A DNA stretch of 64,000 nt, taken from assembly GCF_009756665.1 (NCBI RefSeq), contig NZ_CP037953.1, positions 1,550,001 through 1,614,000 on the forward strand, in the 5' to 3' direction. This document shows, piece by piece, positions 50,939-61,967 of the stretch. Origin of the DNA: Permianibacter aggregans. GTDB lineage: Bacteria > Pseudomonadota > Gammaproteobacteria > Enterobacterales > Permianibacteraceae. Each line of letters opens with the position of its first letter. Within the stretch, counting starts at the first letter, position 1. Made by a program: the position numbers and the translations under genes. The notes beneath the pieces are model-generated. The model was given only the letters and a program-made list of their open reading frames with translations, did no database searches and had not been told where the DNA came from.

Positions 50939-51625
50939 CTACCCCGGCGTCACCGCCACACCATTCATCATCAGCGGCAACTGGCTCAAATCCCAATTAT
51001 TCTTGGCGATCTGATCTTTGAATGCCTGTGTGCGATAAACGGTTTTCTGCAGGATCTTGCGCGGATGATTGGCCAGCCAATCATGACGCACATCGACATA
51101 CGCTTTGACCCATTTTTTCTCATCGCCGCCAAGCGAAGGCGGGCTCTCGGCAAAGCGCTGGCGCAGAAACCACAGGATTTGACCGCTATGGATAAACGAG
51201 TCGTAAATCACCAGCGCTGACAACGGCAACTTGAATTGATGATCATCAGCCCATTGCATGGCCGGGCGAAAATACACGTCATCAAAAAACTGATCCTGAA
51301 CCTTGCGCATCACCGGATCGTTCTTGCCGGCATTTTTCAGCAAAGCAATGAAGTTGTTGTCATCGGTCAAAGGGTCGCTTCCCACCCGATCGGCGTACAC
51401 CGACAGCTCGTGGCTGAACATGCCGTTGGCAGCAACATAAGCTTGTACCAGTTTACGTAAATTGCCGTACTCGGTCGTTTGTGAACGGCCGTAAGTAATT
51501 TGCCGGATATTGTGCGGACCATCGGCATAGCGAACGATGGCGGCATAATTGCCATCGGGTTTACCGGTTTCGACGACATTGATCGTGCGCTCGATGATAG
51601 CGCGCTGGGCGGGAGTCAATTCCAT
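50939..51625 (-). CDS. GH46-type chitosanase-like glycosidase
   Basis: 228 residues. The pattern fits family GH46: the catalytic Glu in VVETGKPDGNYAAI near residue 19, ITYGRSQTTEYGNL, FFDDVYFRPAMQWADD, LSALVIYDSFIHSG and GGDEKKWVKAYVDVRHDWL. These enzymes cut chitosan between GlcN units. No signal peptide is visible from the ATG at 51625, which is unusual for a secreted enzyme. A role on peptidoglycan-like substrates is possible. Confidence 0.8.
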   Translation of the reverse strand: MELTPAQRAIIERTINVVETGKPDGNYAAIVRYADGPHNIRQITYGRSQTTEYGNLRKLVQAYVAANGMFSHELSVYADRVGSDPLTDDNNFIALLKNAGKNDPVMRKVQDQFFDDVYFRPAMQWADDHQFKLPLSALVIYDSFIHSGQILWFLRQRFAESPPSLGGDEKKWVKAYVDVRHDWLANHPRKILQKTVYRTQAFKDQIAKNNWDLSQLPLMMNGVAVTPG

Positions 51626-51773
51626 TTGCCTGACATCCTTTTGTGGCTTGGTCAGGCAATCATGACAGAGAATGCTTGAGCACCAAGCCGATCGCGCGAA
51701 CGGTTCTTACATAACACGCTTTTTAATGGCGAATGGAATATGACCCCGGCAAAAGCAGATTTCGCGGGCAGAC

Positions 51774-53462
51774 CTAGGGTAAAAACAATCGCACAAGCTT
51801 CAAGGTTTCGAAGGAATGGCGGCCACCGAAACGTTGATGGATCGGCCCGAGCCTACCATCCTCGGAAGTTGACCAAGCACAGAGAATGGCATCGAATTCG
51901 TCAATGTCGTCACGCAAGTGAAGCAGGTCAGGCAGCGCACCCTGCCCTTTCAGTTTTTCCATATGGCTGAGTACGGTACCTACGGTCAGCCCGCGCTCAT
52001 TGGCGATTTCCGCCAAGCTTAATTTACGCTCGAGCAGACAGCGGGTCAGTTCATGCGTGGCGACGGCCTTGGTTTTTGCTTTGCGTTGCCGGCGTGATTT
52101 GCCTGCTCCAAGCCCTTCGGCTGGCAGGCCTTTGAAGCGCTCGAATAGTGCAGCATCCATTCGACGGCGCTGCTCCTCTTCGGACAGCCGAGTCAATTCG
52201 CTGACCGCCTGTTGCGACAAACGCCGGAATTGCCCATCGCGAGCGAGAATGGCCGGATGCACTCGCAACGCGATCTCATTCAAGCCAAGTAGTGTCAGAC
52301 CACCGAGTGTGCGCACCCGCGACAACGCGACGTAACCCATACCCGGTTCGAACGCATCGGACAAATCCAGCTCAACGGCATCGAGCGTCATGCCTTGGCT
52401 CTTGTGTATCGTGATTGCCCAAGCCAGGCGTAGCGGCAACTGCTTGAGCGCGGCGCGAATAACCCCCTCTTCTTCCAGCCGCCATTCCATCGGTTCAGCC
52501 AGCAGCCGCTGACCTTCGAGCAATTGCACTTCCGGCCAACCCGTTTCGGCATCGAAACCCAGCACACGGCCACGACTGCCATTGACGAAACTGCCGTCCG
52601 GTGCGTTCTTGACGAACATCACTTCGGCGCCGATTTTCAGTCGTAAAGTTTCCGGCGCCAGACAGTTGCGTTTCAGGCCTTCGACCAGTGCCGCAAATCC
52701 CCGCGTTTCCATGACAAATTCGACCGTTTTTCCTGGTAGCGCAGCGAGCTCTTTTTCATTGATGCTGTCGACATTGATGTTGCGTGCATAGAGCCGGGTT
52801 GGCTGTACGGCGCCAACGCCGACCGGCGGTTTTTTGTAGCGCGTGCGCAGTGGCACTTTTGTGTGTTCGCCGGCGTGGCCACTGCGAATATCGTTCAACA
52901 CCGTCAGCAGCGAATCATTACCCTGACGATGGTTTTCCGTCAGATAGGCAATGTTGAAATCAGCGCGCTGCCAGCTTTGCGCTTCAAAGGCAAATTGCCG
53001 TTCGCTGGCTGGATCTTCAGCGCCGGTGACCGGCGGCAACTGAAAAAAATCTCCGCAGGCAATCAGCTGTATGCCACCGAATGGCGCTTCGTTATCGCGC
53101 AGTCGGCGCAGCACCTGATCAACCAAATCCAGTTGAAACGCGTGCAGCATAGAAATCTCATCGATGACCAATACCTGCGCTTCAGTGACATGGCGCCGAA
53201 TGACGCGGTTCTTCGTCAGCTTTTCAAACGCTTTTTCATCGAGCGTACGCTGCACGCCAATGCCGCTCCAGGCATGAATGGTCTGGCCGCCAAGATGGGT
53301 GGCCGCGATACCGGTTGAAGCGGTAACCGCAACGGTCACGCCATGCTCGCGCAGCATCGTGATATAGCGATTGAGCAGAAAGGTTTTGCCGCTGCCGGCA
53401 GCACCGGTAAGAAAGGTGTTGTACCCCAAACGCAAAAGCGTCAATGCGTCCGATTGCCGCAT
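51774..53462 (-). CDS. Pif1-like helicase with C-terminal helix-turn-helix
   Basis: 562 residues. The Walker A motif is GAAGSGKTFLLN, Walker B VLVIDEISML, with GDFFQLPPV, LTENHRQ and the UvrD-type C-terminal WAITIHKSQGMTLD and YVALSRVRT, all Pif1/RecD-type SF1B signatures. The end (THELTRCLLERKLSLAEIANERGLTVGTV) is an HTH_40-like domain as seen in bacterial Pif1 and RecQ proteins. It probably unwinds 5'-tailed DNA or G-quadruplexes during replication or repair. Confidence 0.92.
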   Translation of the reverse strand: MRQSDALTLLRLGYNTFLTGAAGSGKTFLLNRYITMLREHGVTVAVTASTGIAATHLGGQTIHAWSGIGVQRTLDEKAFEKLTKNRVIRRHVTEAQVLVIDEISMLHAFQLDLVDQVLRRLRDNEAPFGGIQLIACGDFFQLPPVTGAEDPASERQFAFEAQSWQRADFNIAYLTENHRQGNDSLLTVLNDIRSGHAGEHTKVPLRTRYKKPPVGVGAVQPTRLYARNINVDSINEKELAALPGKTVEFVMETRGFAALVEGLKRNCLAPETLRLKIGAEVMFVKNAPDGSFVNGSRGRVLGFDAETGWPEVQLLEGQRLLAEPMEWRLEEEGVIRAALKQLPLRLAWAITIHKSQGMTLDAVELDLSDAFEPGMGYVALSRVRTLGGLTLLGLNEIALRVHPAILARDGQFRRLSQQAVSELTRLSEEEQRRRMDAALFERFKGLPAEGLGAGKSRRQRKAKTKAVATHELTRCLLERKLSLAEIANERGLTVGTVLSHMEKLKGQGALPDLLHLRDDIDEFDAILCAWSTSEDGRLGPIHQRFGGRHSFETLKLVRLFLP

Positions 53463-54471: not shown

Positions 54472-55329
54472 CTAAACGACGACAGCGGCCGAGGGTGCAA
54501 TGATGCTCAGTACTTGCAGCGCCGAATCACGTGTTTGCCGCATGGCGTCTTGCAGCTGTTCATCGGTGCTGCCGAGCATGTCTTTCCAGCCGGGATTGAT
54601 GGCGGCCAGAAACTCGCTCGGTTTTTCCGGCGCCTGGCCGGCCAGCAGGTGCTGGGCGGCATAACGCGCCACGTGAATGATGCTGGCCGCGACCCGTTCG
54701 GCGCCGGCGGTCTCTGGCAGGTGCTGATGCTTGATCGCCAGTGTGATGCTGGTCGGCAATCGCCAAGCGCTAAGTAAAGCATGGCCGACGTCGGCAAAGG
54801 TGTATCCGAGCAGCGATTGCTCGATATCGGCCCGGAAATGACCGCGGGAGTCGGTCAGGATCGTCCGGCAAGCGTCGGGCTTTTGCTCGAGCAAGGCCAG
54901 CAAGCCAATATTGAACAACAGGCCAGCCGTGAACAGCCGCTCGCCCTGGCGGAAACCACAGTGTCTGCCGAGGAATTTGGCGACCAGACCGGTATACACC
55001 GACAACTCCCAGAAACTTTCCATGTCCAAGACGTCACGTGGTACCCGGTTGAACGTGGACACGGCTGAGGTGGCCAGCGCCAGGTTGTAAAGCTCGTTGG
55101 TGCCAATCAGGCGCACGGCACGGGAGACGCTGTCGACCTGCATCGGGAAGTTGTAGAACGGGCTATTGGCGATTTTCAGCAGCCTGGCGGTCAGTGCCGG
55201 GTCGAGCGCGACCTGATCGGCAATTTCAAAGACACTGGCCTGTTTGCTGATCAGTTCCTGCAATTGCAGGCAGATGTCGGGCAGGCTGTAGAGACGGGCG
55301 GCCTCCTTGACGACATCATGGATACTCAT
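54472..55329 (-). CDS. HDOD-domain signalling protein
   Basis: 285 residues from ATG 55329. The frame continues to 55560 but would overlap the divergent sensor gene and add non-homologous sequence. The HDOD domain covers about 15-215 (LPDICLQLQELI, IADQVALDPALTARLLKIANSPFYN, AVRLIGTNELYNLALA, LFTAGLLFNIGLLALLEQ). HDOD proteins lack HD catalytic residues and act as signalling scaffolds, often with c-di-GMP or two-component proteins. It is divergent from the large sensor-cyclase, so a joint role is possible. Confidence 0.92.
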   Translation of the reverse strand: MSIHDVVKEAARLYSLPDICLQLQELISKQASVFEIADQVALDPALTARLLKIANSPFYNFPMQVDSVSRAVRLIGTNELYNLALATSAVSTFNRVPRDVLDMESFWELSVYTGLVAKFLGRHCGFRQGERLFTAGLLFNIGLLALLEQKPDACRTILTDSRGHFRADIEQSLLGYTFADVGHALLSAWRLPTSITLAIKHQHLPETAGAERVAASIIHVARYAAQHLLAGQAPEKPSEFLAAINPGWKDMLGSTDEQLQDAMRQTRDSALQVLSIIAPSAAVVV

Positions 55330-55493: not shown

Positions 55494-58400
55494 ATGAGTC
55501 GATGGTGGTGGTTGGTGCTGTTGCTGGCGCAAAGTGCGCTGGCGGTAGAGACCGTGACATTCCGGCACCTCGATAGCCGCAGCGGCCTGCCGCAGAACTC
55601 GGTGACCAGCATCGCCCAGGACCGGGCCGGCTATATCTGGCTTGGCACCCATGACGGCCTGCACCGTTACGACGGGTACAGTTTTACCAGCTACCGCAGC
55701 GACCCACGCCGCCAGGAATCGCTGTCCGACAACCTGATTCTGAATTTGTTGCTCGACCGTGACGGCCAGCTCTGGGTTGGCACCCAAAGCGGCTTGAACA
55801 AATTCGATACCGCCACCGGCAGCGCCAAACGCTATTTACCGAATGAGAATTTTGGTTCGCTGTCACATCGGCGCATTTCCAGTTTGCTGGAAGATTCATT
55901 GGGCCGGCTGTGGATCGGCACACCAGACGGCCTGAACCGCTACCAACCGGATTCCGACAGTTTCGCGGTGTTCCGTCATAACCCGCTCGACAGCGCCAGT
56001 ATTCCGCCTGGTTTTATTTCGGCGCTGGCCGAAGGGCCGCAAGGTCGCATCTGGGTGGGCTCGCAGGTCTTGGCCTTGTTCGACCCGGACGAGGGCGTAA
56101 TCAAGCAATTCAAAAGCAATCAGGAAAATGCCCCGCGCAATATCACGGCGCTGTGGCGCGACAACGACGCCGGGCTGTGGATCGGCACGCTCAGCGATGG
56201 TTTGTTTTATCTGCCGCCCGATGAATCGCGCTTTCGCCAATTCCGTTTTATCGCCCACGAACCGAACTCACTGCCGAGCAATGCTGTGCGCAGCATCTTG
56301 CGCGATAAAGGTGGCCGGCTCTGGGTTGGCACCGAAGGCGGTGGCCTGGCCCGGATGCTCAGCGATGGCTCGGGCTTCGATGTTTACCGGCGCAACGGTG
56401 CCGATGTGCACAGCATCAGCTTCGACGAAATTAATGATTTGTTTGAAGATCGTTCGGGCTTGTTGTGGATTGGCACACTCGGTGGTGGTGTCAACACCAC
56501 ATCGCCGGAGCGCACTGGTATCGGCCGCGTCATTCATTCCAGCTATCAACCGAATTCATTGAGTGACCCGTTCGTTTGGCAGATCACGCGCGACCAGCGC
56601 GATCATCTTTGGGTGGGTACACTGGCCGGGCTTGATGAAATCAATCCAGCCAGCGGTGAAATTGTTCGCTACGTCAATTTTGCTGATCGCCGTGGCAAAC
56701 CGTTTACCCCACGCGTGCAAACGGTAACCAACGATCATCAAGGACGCATTTGGCTTGGTAGCACTGTTGGTGAACTGGCGGTGTTTGACCCGGAAAGTCT
56801 GCGTGTGAAATTACTCAGTCATCCGGGATTTCTGCAAGGCAAAATCAGCAACTATCGCGTGTTCATGGTGCAACAGGACAGCCAGAAACGAATGTGGGTG
56901 TCGACAGGCGAAGGCATTTCTGAAGTCGATACCGAAACGCTGGAAATCGAGCGCACGTTTCCAATCAGTGACGAAGGCTTTCCACGCGCCACCGTGCGCG
57001 TAATGGCCGAAGTCGATAACCAATTGTGGTTCGGCACCCAGGGCGGTGGCTTGCAGCGTTTTGATTATGACACGCGCAGTGTGCGCACTTATCAACACCG
57101 TGCTGACGACCCGAACAGCTTGTCGAATGACATGATTCGTGCCATTCATGTCGACGACAAAGGCGATATGTGGATCGGCACAATGAACGGCCTGAACCTG
57201 TGGCGTTCAGTCGACCGACGCGGCAACGTCGAGCGCTTTCAAAGCTGGTTCGTTTCTGATGGATTACCAAACGCCGTCGTCTACGCGATTTTGCCGGATC
57301 AATTCGGCAAGCTCTGGCTATCGACCAATAGCGGTTTATCGGAGTTTGACCCGCTGACCGGCAAGTTCCGCAATTTTGATTTGATTGACGGCTTACCCGC
57401 CCAGGAATTCAACAGCCTGGCCGCGGCAAAAACCAAGGATGGCCGACTCTGGTTTGGTGGCAATGCCGGCATCGCCGTGATCAATCCATCGCAGTTGAAT
57501 TACTCATCGAATCCGGTTTCGACGCTGATCACTCATTTTGAAGTGCGCTATCCGGACAATAATGGCAAAACGCTGGAAAACGGCATTTGGCAACTGGCCG
57601 CCGATCAAAACGATATCGAATTCCGGTTCGCTGCGCTCGATTATCGGGCACCGAATCGCAATCGATTTTCCTGGCGCTTGAGCGGCTTCCAGAACGAGTG
57701 GAGCAAGCCGAGTTTCCGCAACCAGATCGCCTTTACCAATCTCGATCCGGGCCAGTACACGTTTGAAGTGCGCAATGCCAATGCCGATGGCGTGTGGAGC
57801 ACCGATATCGCCAAGGTCATGTTCTTTATCCAGGCGCCCTGGTATGCGCGTTGGTACAGCTATGTTGGTTACGTGGCGCTGGTGCTGCTGCTGATCAGCT
57901 GGGCGTATTACAACCATCGCCGCAAGATCGCCAGTCAACAACGCATCAACGAGCAACTGCGTCGTATCGACAAACTGAAAGACGAATTCCTGGCTACGAC
58001 TTCGCACGAGCTGCGCACGCCGCTGAACGGCATTATTGGTATCGCCGATGCGCTGCGCGATGGCGTAGCGGGTGACTTGAACGATCGGGCGCGCAACCAT
58101 TTGTCATTGATTGCCGACAGTGGTCGCCGGTTGTCGCATCTGGTTAACGAAATTCTCGATTTCAAAAAGCTCTCGCACGGGAACGTTACGCTCGATCCGC
58201 ACACGCTTGATCTGCAGTCATCAGTCGCCGTCGTGCTGGCGTTGTCACAACCCTTGGTTGGAGATAAAAGCATTAGTTTGGTCAATGCCGTGCCGGCCGA
58301 TTTTCCGCCCCTGTTCGCCGATGAAGATCGGCTCGAACAAATTCTGCATAACCTGATCGGCAATGCGATCAAATTTACCCAGCAAGGTCATGTCACCGTT

Positions 58401-59873
58401 ACCGCCCGTGTTGAAGGTGACAAAGCCGAAATTCAGATTGCTGACTCCGGCATTGGCATTTCGCCGGAACAACTGGAACGGATTTTTCTGCCGTTCGAGC
58501 AGGTCGCCGAAGCCAATACCCGTCGTCATGGCGGTACCGGGCTTGGTCTTGCCGTAGTGAAAAAACTGGTCGAGATGCACGGCGGTAATGTCGAAGTGCA
58601 AAGCTCGATTGGCAACGGTTCGCAGTTCCGCTTTACGCTACCGCTGGCGGAAACCGGTGCCAAAGTCAAACCAGCGAAGCCGACGTCACTGTCCACCGCG
58701 CAGTTGACGCAAATGCATTTGCCGGTAACGACTGCGACCGACAATGCCCTGGCGACGATTCTGGTCGCTGACGACGAACCATTGAACTGTCAGGTGGTGG
58801 CGGACTGTCTGGGTTTGCAGGGGTATTCCGTGGTGACCGTTGGCGATGGCCAGGCAGCGCTCGACATGATCGCCAAACGCCCATTTGCGTTGGTCATCCT
58901 CGATGTGATGATGCCGAAGCTTTCCGGCTTTGATGTCTGCCGCAAGTTGCGCGAAGTGTACGCGCCGCATGAGTTGCCGATTTTGATGCTGTCGGCACGT
59001 AATCGCGCCGAAGATATTGCCACCGGTCTCGCCGCTGGCGCCAACGACTACATCGGCAAACCGGTCGAGCGCAGCGTGCTGGTGGCGCGGGTGAAAAACC
59101 TGCTGGCCTTGCATGAAGTCAACGACGCCAAACAGGCGCAAGAAAAAGCGCGAATGGTGCAAGAAGCTTGCGACCGTTTGGCCCGTTATTTCCCACCACC
59201 GCTGGTGCGCAAATTGTTGGCTGGCAGCGAACCTGAATTGCTGAAAGCCGAGCGTCGGCGATTGACCGTGGTGTTCGCCGATTTGGTCGAGTTCACGACA
59301 CTGACCGACCGCTTTGAACCGGAAATCATCACCGATTTGTTGAATACTTTCCTCGGCAAGATGAGCGAACTGGTCGAGCAACACGATGGCACACTGAACG
59401 AGTTGCTCGGCGATGGCATGGTGATTTTGTTCGGTGCGCCAGAGCGGATGGACAAACAGGATCAGGCCGAAAAAGCGGTGGCCTTGGCCGTCGCGATGCA
59501 GAAAGAAATGGAGAAACTGAAAACGCTGTGGCTGGAATCCGGCATCGATCACAATATCGATCTGCGCATCGGCATTCATCAGGATTTTTCAACCGTCGGT
59601 AATTTCGGTGCCGGACAGGTGCTGGCCTATCGTGCCGTTGGCAGTGGCGTTAATCTGGCTGCGCGTTTGCAGTCGCACTGCAAACCCGGTCGGGTCATGG
59701 TCAGTTATCCGATTTACGCCTTGACCCGCGAGCGCTACCCGTACGATGAATTGCAGGAGATTGCCATCAAGGGCTTTTCCCATCCGCACCGCGTTTGTGA
59801 ATTGGACCCGGATTCGGTGGTCGAAACGCGGTTACGACTGGTGGATAAATCGGATCCGATGGGTGCGGCTTGA
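55494..59873 (+). CDS. Propeller sensor/histidine kinase/receiver/class III nucleotide cyclase
   Basis: 1459 residues with a signal peptide ([15 protein letters not shown]). A periplasmic two-component-regulator propeller is built from many WIGT/WVGT blades (about 20-670), then a Y_Y_Y domain (about 680-780). One membrane helix lies near 787-810. HisKA has His838 in [10 protein letters not shown]; the HATPase has GTGLGLAVV; the receiver has Asp1137. Last is a class III cyclase domain (about 1255-1430) with metal Asp1263 and Asp1307 (spacing 44, as in known cyclases), Asn1387 and transition-state Arg1391. The purine-selecting residue is Glu1303 rather than the Lys of adenylate cyclases, and Arg1380 stands at the second selector position. 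It should couple an extracellular carbohydrate-like signal to cyclic nucleotide synthesis. Confidence 0.92.
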
Positions 59874-59884
59874 GCGATTGATAC

Positions 59885-60421
59885 TCAGCGAATCCCGAAG
59901 GACTCCGGTTTGTACACTTTGCGTGAATTGGCTTCTTCAATCATTGCCTTGATCGCCACGCCTCTTTCCTGGGCACGTTTTCTTCCTTCCTCGGAAATTT
60001 CCGGCCCATAGGTTTTCACTTTGCGTTTACCGGCATGATCGCCGTTGCCGGCGGCTACCAGCATCCAGGCATAACCTTCAATCAAATCGTGAGCAACATA
60101 ATCGCCATTGATATACATCGCGCCAACATTGTGTTGTGACGTGGCATGTTCGCGTAATGACGCTTCATAAAATGCCAGGAAGGCTTTGCGATAGCTTTGC
60201 GAGATGCCGGAGCCTTCCGGCGGCGCGTAATAGAGATTGCCCATCCGGAACAAGGCATCCGGGTCGCCAAGTTCAGCGCGATGACGCAGCTTGCTCCAGT
60301 CCGAGACATAGATATACGTGTATGGACCGATGCGATCGCCGCGGTCATTGGCCTCGGCAACCGGCAGCAACGACACCGCCAGCAGCAGTGCCAATGAAAA
60401 GAGTTTGGCGAATGTGTACAT
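59885..60421 (-). CDS. Exported Sel1-repeat protein
   Basis: 178 residues from ATG 60421, which opens a signal peptide (YTFAKLFSLALLLAVSLLPVAEA). Sel1-like TPR units are GDPDALFRMGNLYYAPP, AFLAFYEASLREHATSQHNVGAMYINGDYVAHD and LIEGYAWMLVAAGNGDHAG. Such solenoids mediate protein-protein contacts in the periplasm. It lies between the sensor-cyclase and the Crp-like gene on the opposite strand. Confidence 0.85.
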   Translation of the reverse strand: MYTFAKLFSLALLLAVSLLPVAEANDRGDRIGPYTYIYVSDWSKLRHRAELGDPDALFRMGNLYYAPPEGSGISQSYRKAFLAFYEASLREHATSQHNVGAMYINGDYVAHDLIEGYAWMLVAAGNGDHAGKRKVKTYGPEISEEGRKRAQERGVAIKAMIEEANSRKVYKPESFGIR

Positions 60422-60563: not shown

Positions 60564-61244
60564 ATGTCTGATGAACAAGAAGGCCTCAACGCCATGGAGT
60601 TACGCGATTTCAAAATCCTGCAAGGCCTGTCCGACGCTGATATCGAGCGGCTTGCGCGCCATATCCACATCCGCCATTACGGTAAACGCACGCAAATCAT
60701 CAGCGAAGGCGAACCGGCACACTGCCTCTATTTCGTGCTCTCCGGCCGCGTCAAAGTCTATCTGGACGATGAAAAAGGCAAAGAGATCACCGTGAATTTT
60801 CACGAAGAGGGCGAGGTGTTCGGCGAGTTGTCGCTGATTCAGGGCATCGATCGCACGGCTTCGGTGGTCACTGTTGACGATTGTAGGCTCGGCCTGATGT
60901 CCGATATCGATTTTCGTCAGTGCATGCAGGAGGTGCCGGCGTTTAACCAGAATATCATGAACGACTTGATCGACCGGCTGAAGCAAGCGACCGAAATCAT
61001 TCGTCGCCTTGGCCTGATGGATGTCTATGGCCGCATCGCGGTGCTGCTGCTGAATGAATCGGTCGAGCAGGATGGTATTCGCGTCATGAAAGAAAAGCTG
61101 ACCCAGCAGAACATCGCCAGCCGGGTTGGTTCATCAAGGGAAATGGTGGCCCGCATTCTGAAGGATTTGCGCATTGGCGGTTATGTCGATGCCAATGACG
61201 AAGGCTTTTTGGTCATCCACAAACCGCTACCGCATTCCTGGTAA
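60564..61244 (+). CDS. Crp/Fnr-family cyclic-nucleotide-type regulator
   Basis: 226 residues, ATG with GAGG upstream. The cNMP-binding barrel has GEL at 87-89 and Arg97-Thr98 in the phosphate-binding cassette, equivalent to Arg82-Ser83 of E. coli CRP. The C-helix has Ala142-Thr143 where CRP has Thr127-Ser128, the adenine contacts. The recognition helix is in QQNIASRVGSSREMVARILKDL. The phosphate pocket is kept but the base pocket differs, so the ligand may not be cAMP. No Cys cluster of Fnr type is present. Confidence 0.92.
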   Translation: MSDEQEGLNAMELRDFKILQGLSDADIERLARHIHIRHYGKRTQIISEGEPAHCLYFVLSGRVKVYLDDEKGKEITVNFHEEGEVFGELSLIQGIDRTASVVTVDDCRLGLMSDIDFRQCMQEVPAFNQNIMNDLIDRLKQATEIIRRLGLMDVYGRIAVLLLNESVEQDGIRVMKEKLTQQNIASRVGSSREMVARILKDLRIGGYVDANDEGFLVIHKPLPHSW

Positions 61245-61247
61245 GAC

Positions 61248-61967
61248 TCAGGATTGTTTGACCACCGTCAGCAGCTCGGCATAATCGAGTCCGCCGGTCA
61301 GCAATGCTCGGCCAATGACCACACCAGCGAGTGCACTCAACGGCTTCTTGCGCAGCAAATCCGCTGTCGTGAAGGCATGCACACCACCATTGCAAACCAC
61401 TGGCAGCGAGGTATTTTTGGCTAACGCCGCTGCATACGGCAGTGGATCGCGGCGATCTCCCGGCGCATGCATTTCCGAATAAAAGACGCCGGCGGCGCCG
61501 TCCTCTTCGTACTGGGGAATCAACACTTCCGCAGCGACTGCACCATTACTGCCATTGACCAAACCTTCGCGCGCCTCAATCGAGACAATCACCGCGCCCG
61601 GATACTCACCACATAAATCGATGACTGAATCGCGTTGACGCATCATTTTCCAGGTCAACACGACAAAGCTGGCGCCGACATCCAGCCATAATTCGGCATG
61701 AGCGATGCTCTTGATACCGCCGGTGACTTCGATTTCGAGATTCGGATGATTTTTGCGCAGTTGCTGGACGATATCGACATTGACCGGCTGGCCTTCATGA
61801 GCGCCGTCGGTGTCGATCAAATGCACCCGGCGCGCACCAATGTCGACAAAGCGTTTGATGGTATCGAACGCGTCCAGGTACATCAGCGGATCTTCTTTTT
61901 TATCGTGTACCGGTTTCGGCACCGCGATATGGCCTTTGCGCAATTCAAATCCGGGAATCAATAGCAT
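61248..61967 (-). CDS. HisA/HisF-superfamily TIM-barrel protein, catalytic residues altered
   Basis: 239 residues, the length of HisA. The barrel, both phosphate-binding ends (VTGGIKSIAHAE and CNGGVHAFTTAD...GVVIGRALLTGG) and HLIDTDGAHEGQPVN follow HisA. The two catalytic aspartates of HisA (Asp8, Asp129 in E. coli) are represented by Glu8 (IPGFEL) and Glu131 (VSIEAR). It stands outside any his operon, convergent with the Crp-like gene. It may be a paralogue with a new reaction; true HisA function cannot be assumed. Confidence 0.8.
   Translation of the reverse strand: MLLIPGFELRKGHIAVPKPVHDKKEDPLMYLDAFDTIKRFVDIGARRVHLIDTDGAHEGQPVNVDIVQQLRKNHPNLEIEVTGGIKSIAHAELWLDVGASFVVLTWKMMRQRDSVIDLCGEYPGAVIVSIEAREGLVNGSNGAVAAEVLIPQYEEDGAAGVFYSEMHAPGDRRDPLPYAAALAKNTSLPVVCNGGVHAFTTADLLRKKPLSALAGVVIGRALLTGGLDYAELLTVVKQS

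Follow-up and report, generated by a model that had tools for sequence, protein, structure and literature searches.

Domain architecture of the cyclase

The analysed window is a 64,000-nucleotide stretch of the Permianibacter aggregans genome (contig NZ_CP037953.1, positions 1,550,001 to 1,614,000). It carries a gene for a hybrid two-component cyclase, in which a propeller sensor, a histidine kinase, a receiver and a class III nucleotide cyclase are fused on one chain, followed by a gene for a CRP/FNR-type regulator, referred to here as the partner CRP. The cyclase probably forms cyclic GMP (cGMP) on phosphorylation, and the CRP paralogue probably reads this messenger, apart from the separate cyclic AMP (cAMP)-CRP pathway of the cell. 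The features are as follows.

55494..59873, + strand: hybrid two-component cyclase, 1459 residues, ATG start; signal peptide, propeller, Y_Y_Y, transmembrane segment, HisKA, HATPase_c, receiver, class III cyclase
55551..57830, + strand: predicted periplasmic sensor, Reg_prop propeller repeats and Y_Y_Y (57639-57830), from Pfam
57852..57908, + strand: putative transmembrane segment, about residues 787-805, from a hydropathy scan
57978..58649, + strand: HisKA (H838 at 58005-58007) and HATPase_c (58320-58649), from Pfam and residue numbering
58758..59096, + strand: receiver domain, phospho-acceptor D1137 at 58902-58904, from Pfam and residue numbering
59259..59774, + strand: class III cyclase domain with metal Asp 1263/1307, Glu1303 (59400-59402), Arg1380 (59631-59633), Asn1387 and Arg1391
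60564..61244, + strand: partner CRP/FNR-type regulator, cyclic nucleotide-binding domain and Crp helix-turn-helix (HTH), from Pfam; 0.7 kb downstream of the cyclase

Pfam places the Reg_prop repeats, Y_Y_Y (716-779), HisKA (829-896), HATPase_c (943-1052), Response_reg (1089-1201) and Guanylate_cyc (1256-1427) in this order, all with scores well over the cut-off, and the same architecture is found in the orthologues. The propeller contains 13 repeat motifs of the form W[IVLF][GAS][TS] between residues 48 and 607. Because the N-terminus is a signal-peptide-like stretch and a hydrophobic segment lies near residues 787-805, the propeller is most likely exposed to the periplasm and the remaining domains are most likely cytoplasmic. 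The kinase part has the composition of a hybrid histidine kinase, namely a HisKA domain with its His, a HATPase_c domain and a receiver with the acidic pair, the Asp and the Lys; H838, D1093, D1094, D1137 and K1189 are unchanged in 13 aligned relatives. The cyclase domain passes PF00211 (75 bits against a cut-off of 21.9), adopts the cyclase fold with Z-scores of 25-30 to solved cyclases, and retains the full catalytic set of metal-binding D1263 and D1307 and the transition-state pair N1387 and R1391. An earlier sequence-only reading had described the same succession of domains, with both metal Asp residues, Asn1387 and Arg1391 intact; Pfam agrees, and H838, D1137, D1263, E1303, D1307, R1380, N1387 and R1391 carry these numbers in the computed translation as well.

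Purine-selector residues

In HMMER alignments to solved cyclases, E1303 shares a column with the Lys of CyaB and CyaC and with the Glu of Cya2, a guanylyl cyclase; in the column of R1380, CyaB and CyaC have Thr and Cya2 has Gly. An AlphaFold2 model of the domain (mean predicted local distance difference test score, pLDDT, 89.0; predicted template modelling score, pTM, 0.84) superimposes on CyaB (3r5g; Z 30.1, 188 residues, 1.1 Å), CyaC (1wc1; Z 29.7, 188 residues, 1.2 Å) and Cya2 (2w01; Z 26.9, 186 residues, 1.5 Å). The aligned ranges bring E1303, residue 101 of the model, onto CyaC residue 1057, the known selector Lys of that enzyme (Lys1057), and the structure-based alignment likewise sets E1303 at the Glu488 position of Cya2. 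The claim that Glu1303 replaces the adenine-selecting Lys thus withstands the structural alignment, which might have put another residue into the selector column and did not.

Glu in this column together with an intact catalytic set is a trait of guanylate cyclases (PMC4215837, PMC7384201), and the single exchange E488K suffices to turn Cya2 into an adenylate cyclase (PMC5995499). The second selector is C, S, T, H, A or G in guanylate cyclases (PMC4215837) and D or T in adenylate cyclases (PMC7384201); Arg1380 is absent from these lists, as had been recognised from the sequence. The first selector is therefore that of a guanylate cyclase and the second lies outside the listed residues, at a position that varies in known guanylate cyclases and does not strictly define the class, which is why we term the protein a predicted, not a proven, guanylate cyclase.

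The unusual Arg might indicate another product, such as cUMP, cCMP, cIMP or a mixture, as in Pycsar-like cyclases. We consider this very improbable. It is true that PADLOC PycC models match the domain, that no guanylate cyclase is known to have Arg as second selector, and that pyrimidine cyclases place an Arg close to the base pocket (PMC11224242). The domain matches CyaB better than it does the PycC models, however, and the PycC matches stem from the common domain; the residues that set Pycsar specificity are different (F100, R142 and Q144 in EaPycC; Y50, D94 and R97 in BcPycC; PMC11224242), and the neighbouring gene encodes an HTH regulator in place of an adjacent TIR or membrane effector. 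Membership in the Pycsar pyrimidine cyclases was rejected on the same grounds, together with the Glu in the selector column.

Conservation and phylogeny of the Glu/Arg pair

The pair (E/R, first/second selector) is invariant in 24/24 orthologues from three families of the order that share 45-75% identity over the domain, and is therefore not a chance occurrence. The metal Asp pair and Arg1391 are equally invariant, and Asn1387 is present in 23 of the 24. The E/R group is monophyletic (support 98/96), branches broadly in line with taxonomy and has a Q/T cyclase of another order as its sister.

The combination was found in none of 130 further relatives, a sample picked by similarity to the query and covering part of the class III cyclases. 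Among the 73 that came from a species-genome scan, two have E/T, one Q/T and one K/R, and the others have Lys, nearly all with T, S, A or G; of the 57 from class and phylum searches, 47 have K/T, while E/A, E/D, E/G and Q/T occur once each. Since the three other class III cyclases of the window genome (L001 among them) have K/T, K/T and K/D, the E/R enzyme is an exception even in its own cell.

A separate cyclase group (L186, L187, L193) was seen in which the first selector is Arg and the second Ala or Gly; two of its members have receiver-like motifs.

The nucleotide pocket of the partner CRP

CRP residues are given in E. coli CRP numbering; the E. coli sequence agrees with PDB alignments in the stretches used. 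All 21 partner CRPs keep the ribose-phosphate contacts G71, E72, R82 and S/T83, the GE...RT phosphate cassette, so that the intact ribose-phosphate pocket expected of the CRP in a cGMP-CRP system is present. In contrast, all three adenine contacts are changed: the 21 proteins uniformly have N62, A127 and T128 instead of the S62, T127 and S128 of E. coli CRP, which contact adenine in CAP (PMC11253593). The canonical CRP of the window genome (L152) has A62, T127 and S128. In Clr, a receptor of both cAMP and cGMP, the residue equivalent to S128 is T141; it contacts N2 of cGMP, which sets Clr substantially apart from the inactive CAP-cGMP complex (PMC10127613). T128 of the partner CRP resembles this residue, and A127 differs from T140 of Clr. 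With the ribose-phosphate contacts kept and N62, A127 and T128 changed, the partner CRP is, on its sequence, a protein with a preserved cyclic-nucleotide pocket and altered adenine reading, in a lineage in which the cyclase selector is altered as well. A Thr at position 83 was dropped as a mark of cGMP binding; Kangiella-type canonical CRPs also have it, and one partner CRP has Ser.

The same residues bear on the possibility that the enzyme is an adenylate cyclase or has relaxed specificity, and supplies the general cAMP pool; the selector changes would then be tolerated and the CRP paralogue would be another cAMP receptor. Its closest solved relatives by both fold and sequence are indeed the adenylate cyclases CyaB and CyaC, and the textbook selectors are absent from some characterised cyclases. 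We nevertheless judge this explanation unlikely: the Glu, usual for guanylate cyclases in this column, does not vary among the orthologues, in contrast to the Lys kept by the other class III cyclases of the cell; the partner CRP lacks T127, the adenine N6 contact; and the genome already has a canonical CRP and a class I adenylate cyclase, by which cAMP signalling is served. The sequence-only reading had spoken of a one-protein path, which holds for the stretch from sensor to cyclase and overlooks the CRP-type regulator next door. This regulator is the probable next step of the pathway and, of the arguments added here, the strongest one against cAMP as the messenger.

Co-inheritance and gene linkage

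With thresholds of E at most 1e-40 for the cyclase and at most 1e-48 for the partner CRP, the latter fixed before the search, both proteins occur in identical sets of 21 of the 394 genomes of the order. Across the 40 genomes of family f8, both genes are present in 17 and neither in 21; one genome has the cyclase only (73% complete) and one the CRP only (82% complete). Of the 34 genomes with a completeness of 90% or more and a contamination of 5% or less, 15 have both genes, 19 have neither and none has only one. The matches are cleanly bimodal, at 1e-50 or better against 1e-27 or worse. The absences in this family comprise one genus (g9) and genome G357.

Two further genes belong to the conserved cassette.

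59885..60421, - strand: small secreted Sel1-repeat protein; the open reading frame (ORF) opens at 60670, and orthologue starts suggest the ATG at 60421
61248..61967, - strand: divergent HisA-like TIM barrel, fourth cassette gene, conserved across cassettes

The order cyclase, Sel1-repeat protein (opposite strand), CRP (cyclase strand) and HisA-like protein (opposite strand) is kept in three families: the window's own, f14 and f8, in the last of these in genera g74 and g94. The cyclase gene is thus both linked to and co-inherited with a CRP-type gene, as expected of a cGMP-CRP system, and the partner CRP is the evolutionary partner of the cyclase and its likely receiver.

An analogous arrangement exists in a distant relative (G530), where a kinase-receiver-cyclase protein with Q/T selectors and a different sensor has a divergent CRP gene 84 bases away, whose product is the best match of that genome to the partner CRP. 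Neither T127 nor S128 is changed in the second CRP of G530 or in the Kangiella-type CRPs. The CRP of the G530 pair (L225, 5388-7961 and 4606-5304) has N62, L127 and S128, and the messenger specificity of this pair may differ.

Proposed mechanism and its alternatives

We infer the direction of the phosphorelay, the product, the ligand of the CRP, its regulon and the chemistry of the Arg as follows. The periplasmic propeller would sense a ligand, upon which the histidine kinase would autophosphorylate H838 and pass the phosphate to D1137 of the fused receiver. Phosphorylation of the receiver would change the activity of the C-terminal, homodimeric class III cyclase, which would convert GTP to cGMP. 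In its pocket Glu1303 would read N1 and N2 of guanine by accepting hydrogen bonds from N1-H and N2-H, and Arg1380 would probably donate a hydrogen bond to O6/N7. The CRP paralogue would bind cGMP via the ribose-phosphate cassette and the changed base pocket (N62, A127, T128), and would control a regulon of its own, insulated from ordinary cAMP-CRP. More tentatively, enzyme and receptor may have been re-specified together from a cAMP-type ancestor into a separate gammaproteobacterial cGMP-CRP pathway, with the Arg reading O6, a cGMP-selective CRP with the AT motif, an intramolecular phosphorelay and no cross-talk with cAMP-CRP; we would give this fuller version slightly less than an even chance.

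Several observations weigh against the proposal. No characterised cyclase with Arg at the second selector was found in the literature searched; Arg1380 could also pair with Glu1303 and close the pocket, and the enzyme is devoid of the Tyr that boosts guanylate cyclase activity in Cya2. In one orthologue (genome G002; L007/L030/L034) Asn1387 is replaced by Ile, with E/R, both metal Asp residues and Arg1391 kept. On the side of the receptor, the Ala at position 127 costs a contact that extends to O6 of cGMP in Clr as well. The E. coli palindrome TGTGA-N6-TCACA, with up to 2 mismatches allowed, has 8 matches in the window against 25.7 expected by chance and none in the cassette promoters, and the regions upstream of 20 partner CRP genes, searched for inverted repeats in common, yielded no shared motif. 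Because the genomes are related, few independent events underlie the co-occurrence. In genus g89 the cyclase gene lies elsewhere, the Sel1, CRP and HisA-like genes still being together, and in genus g107 the cyclase and CRP genes are on different contigs.

The Asn-to-Ile exchange would suit a degenerate cyclase that serves as a nucleotide sensor or scaffold, held by a Glu1303-Arg1380 salt bridge and deprived of turnover. The near-complete conservation of the catalytic residues described above speaks against such a decay, and XC_0250 makes cGMP even without the Asn/Arg pair (PMC3770947); a loss of catalysis therefore appears improbable. The unlinked genes in g89 and g107 would fit a situation in which cGMP is made and the neighbouring CRP paralogue is not its receptor, responding to another signal or acting independently of a ligand like DdrI, in which Ala likewise stands at the T127 position and which needs no cAMP to bind DNA (PMC11253593). 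In DdrI, however, Ala replaces S83 and Tyr113 fills the pocket (PMC11253593), whereas the partner CRP keeps E72, R82 and S/T83, and co-occurrence is complete in the good genomes; there is little to be expected of this explanation. A cGMP-forming cyclase read by the partner CRP hence remains the preferred interpretation.

Relation to known systems

Cya2 of Synechocystis (PDB 2w01) shares the homodimeric cyclase fold, the Glu in the purine-selector column and both metal Asp residues, but has Gly as second selector, the activity-boosting Tyr and a different regulatory region, at 30% identity. The closest folds (Z about 30) are those of CyaC from Spirulina/Arthrospira and CyaB from Pseudomonas aeruginosa, which in contrast have Lys/Thr selectors, make cAMP and lack a propeller. 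CyaC is also a kinase-receiver-cyclase protein. The 2c-Cyclop proteins of Chlamydomonas and Volvox likewise carry sensor, histidine kinase, receiver and guanylyl cyclase on one chain (PMC6284317), and the activity of this opsin fusion requires phosphotransfer, which provides a precedent for the proposed phosphorelay wiring (PMC6284317); they are, however, eukaryotic, light-inhibited through a rhodopsin sensor and without a CRP partner.

Readout of a cyclase by a cGMP-responsive CRP homologue, predicted here, is known for the guanylate cyclase and CgrA of Rhodospirillum centenum, where the genes are linked as well (PMC4681086), and for Clr of Sinorhizobium (PMC10127613). Both regulators differ from the partner CRP in being alphaproteobacterial cluster G CRPs for which no kinase-receiver-cyclase fusion is described, and Clr has TT where the partner CRP has AT. 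XC_0250/XC_0249 of Xanthomonas campestris combine gammaproteobacterial cGMP synthesis, predicted in the present case, with an adjacent cyclic nucleotide-binding effector (PMC3770947), but the effector is a GGDEF protein and the cyclase has TPR repeats and no Asn/Arg (PMC3770947).

The CyaC-type kinase cyclases, Cya2, CgrA, Clr and XC_0250/0249 thus supply the parts and the principle. New, as far as our searches show, are the pairing of Glu with Arg, a propeller-driven version whose selector is of the guanylate type, and a CRP paralogue that is inherited with the cyclase and has changed base contacts; a literature search, with subscription journals largely outside it, returned no description of this protein, of the Glu/Arg pair or of an E/R cyclase. 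Bacterial cGMP signalling is known from only a handful of cases, and the locus represents a candidate system in a group of Gammaproteobacteria. As the enzyme, its probable receptor and the changed residues can be read from the sequence, and since some of these bacteria are cultured, Aliikangiella species being among the carriers of the cyclase, it becomes possible to test directly whether bacteria run cAMP and cGMP circuits side by side and insulated from each other.

Neighbouring genes

In all contexts examined, also those from which the cyclase has moved away, the Sel1-repeat gene is the opposite-strand neighbour of the partner CRP gene. The Sel1 match of the window protein lies below the Pfam cut-off and that of an orthologue above it. 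The HisA-like barrel is constant in the cassettes (L033, L031, L032, L029, L030, L161-L167). By eye, Asp or Glu occupies its usual catalytic Asp positions, and it may be no working HisA; a strong His_biosynth pair, presumably hisA/hisF, lies elsewhere in the genome (3698742-3700144).

On the other side of the cyclase, a divergent HDOD-domain gene (54472-55329, - strand) is also adjacent in a genome of the same genus (G001); its ORF remains open as far as 55560, beyond the start of the cyclase gene, with the likely ATG at 55329. Further away, at 50939-53462 (- strand), a glycosyl hydrolase family 46 (chitosanase-type) gene stands beside a gene for a PIF1-like helicase with a C-terminal HTH_40 domain (51774-53462).
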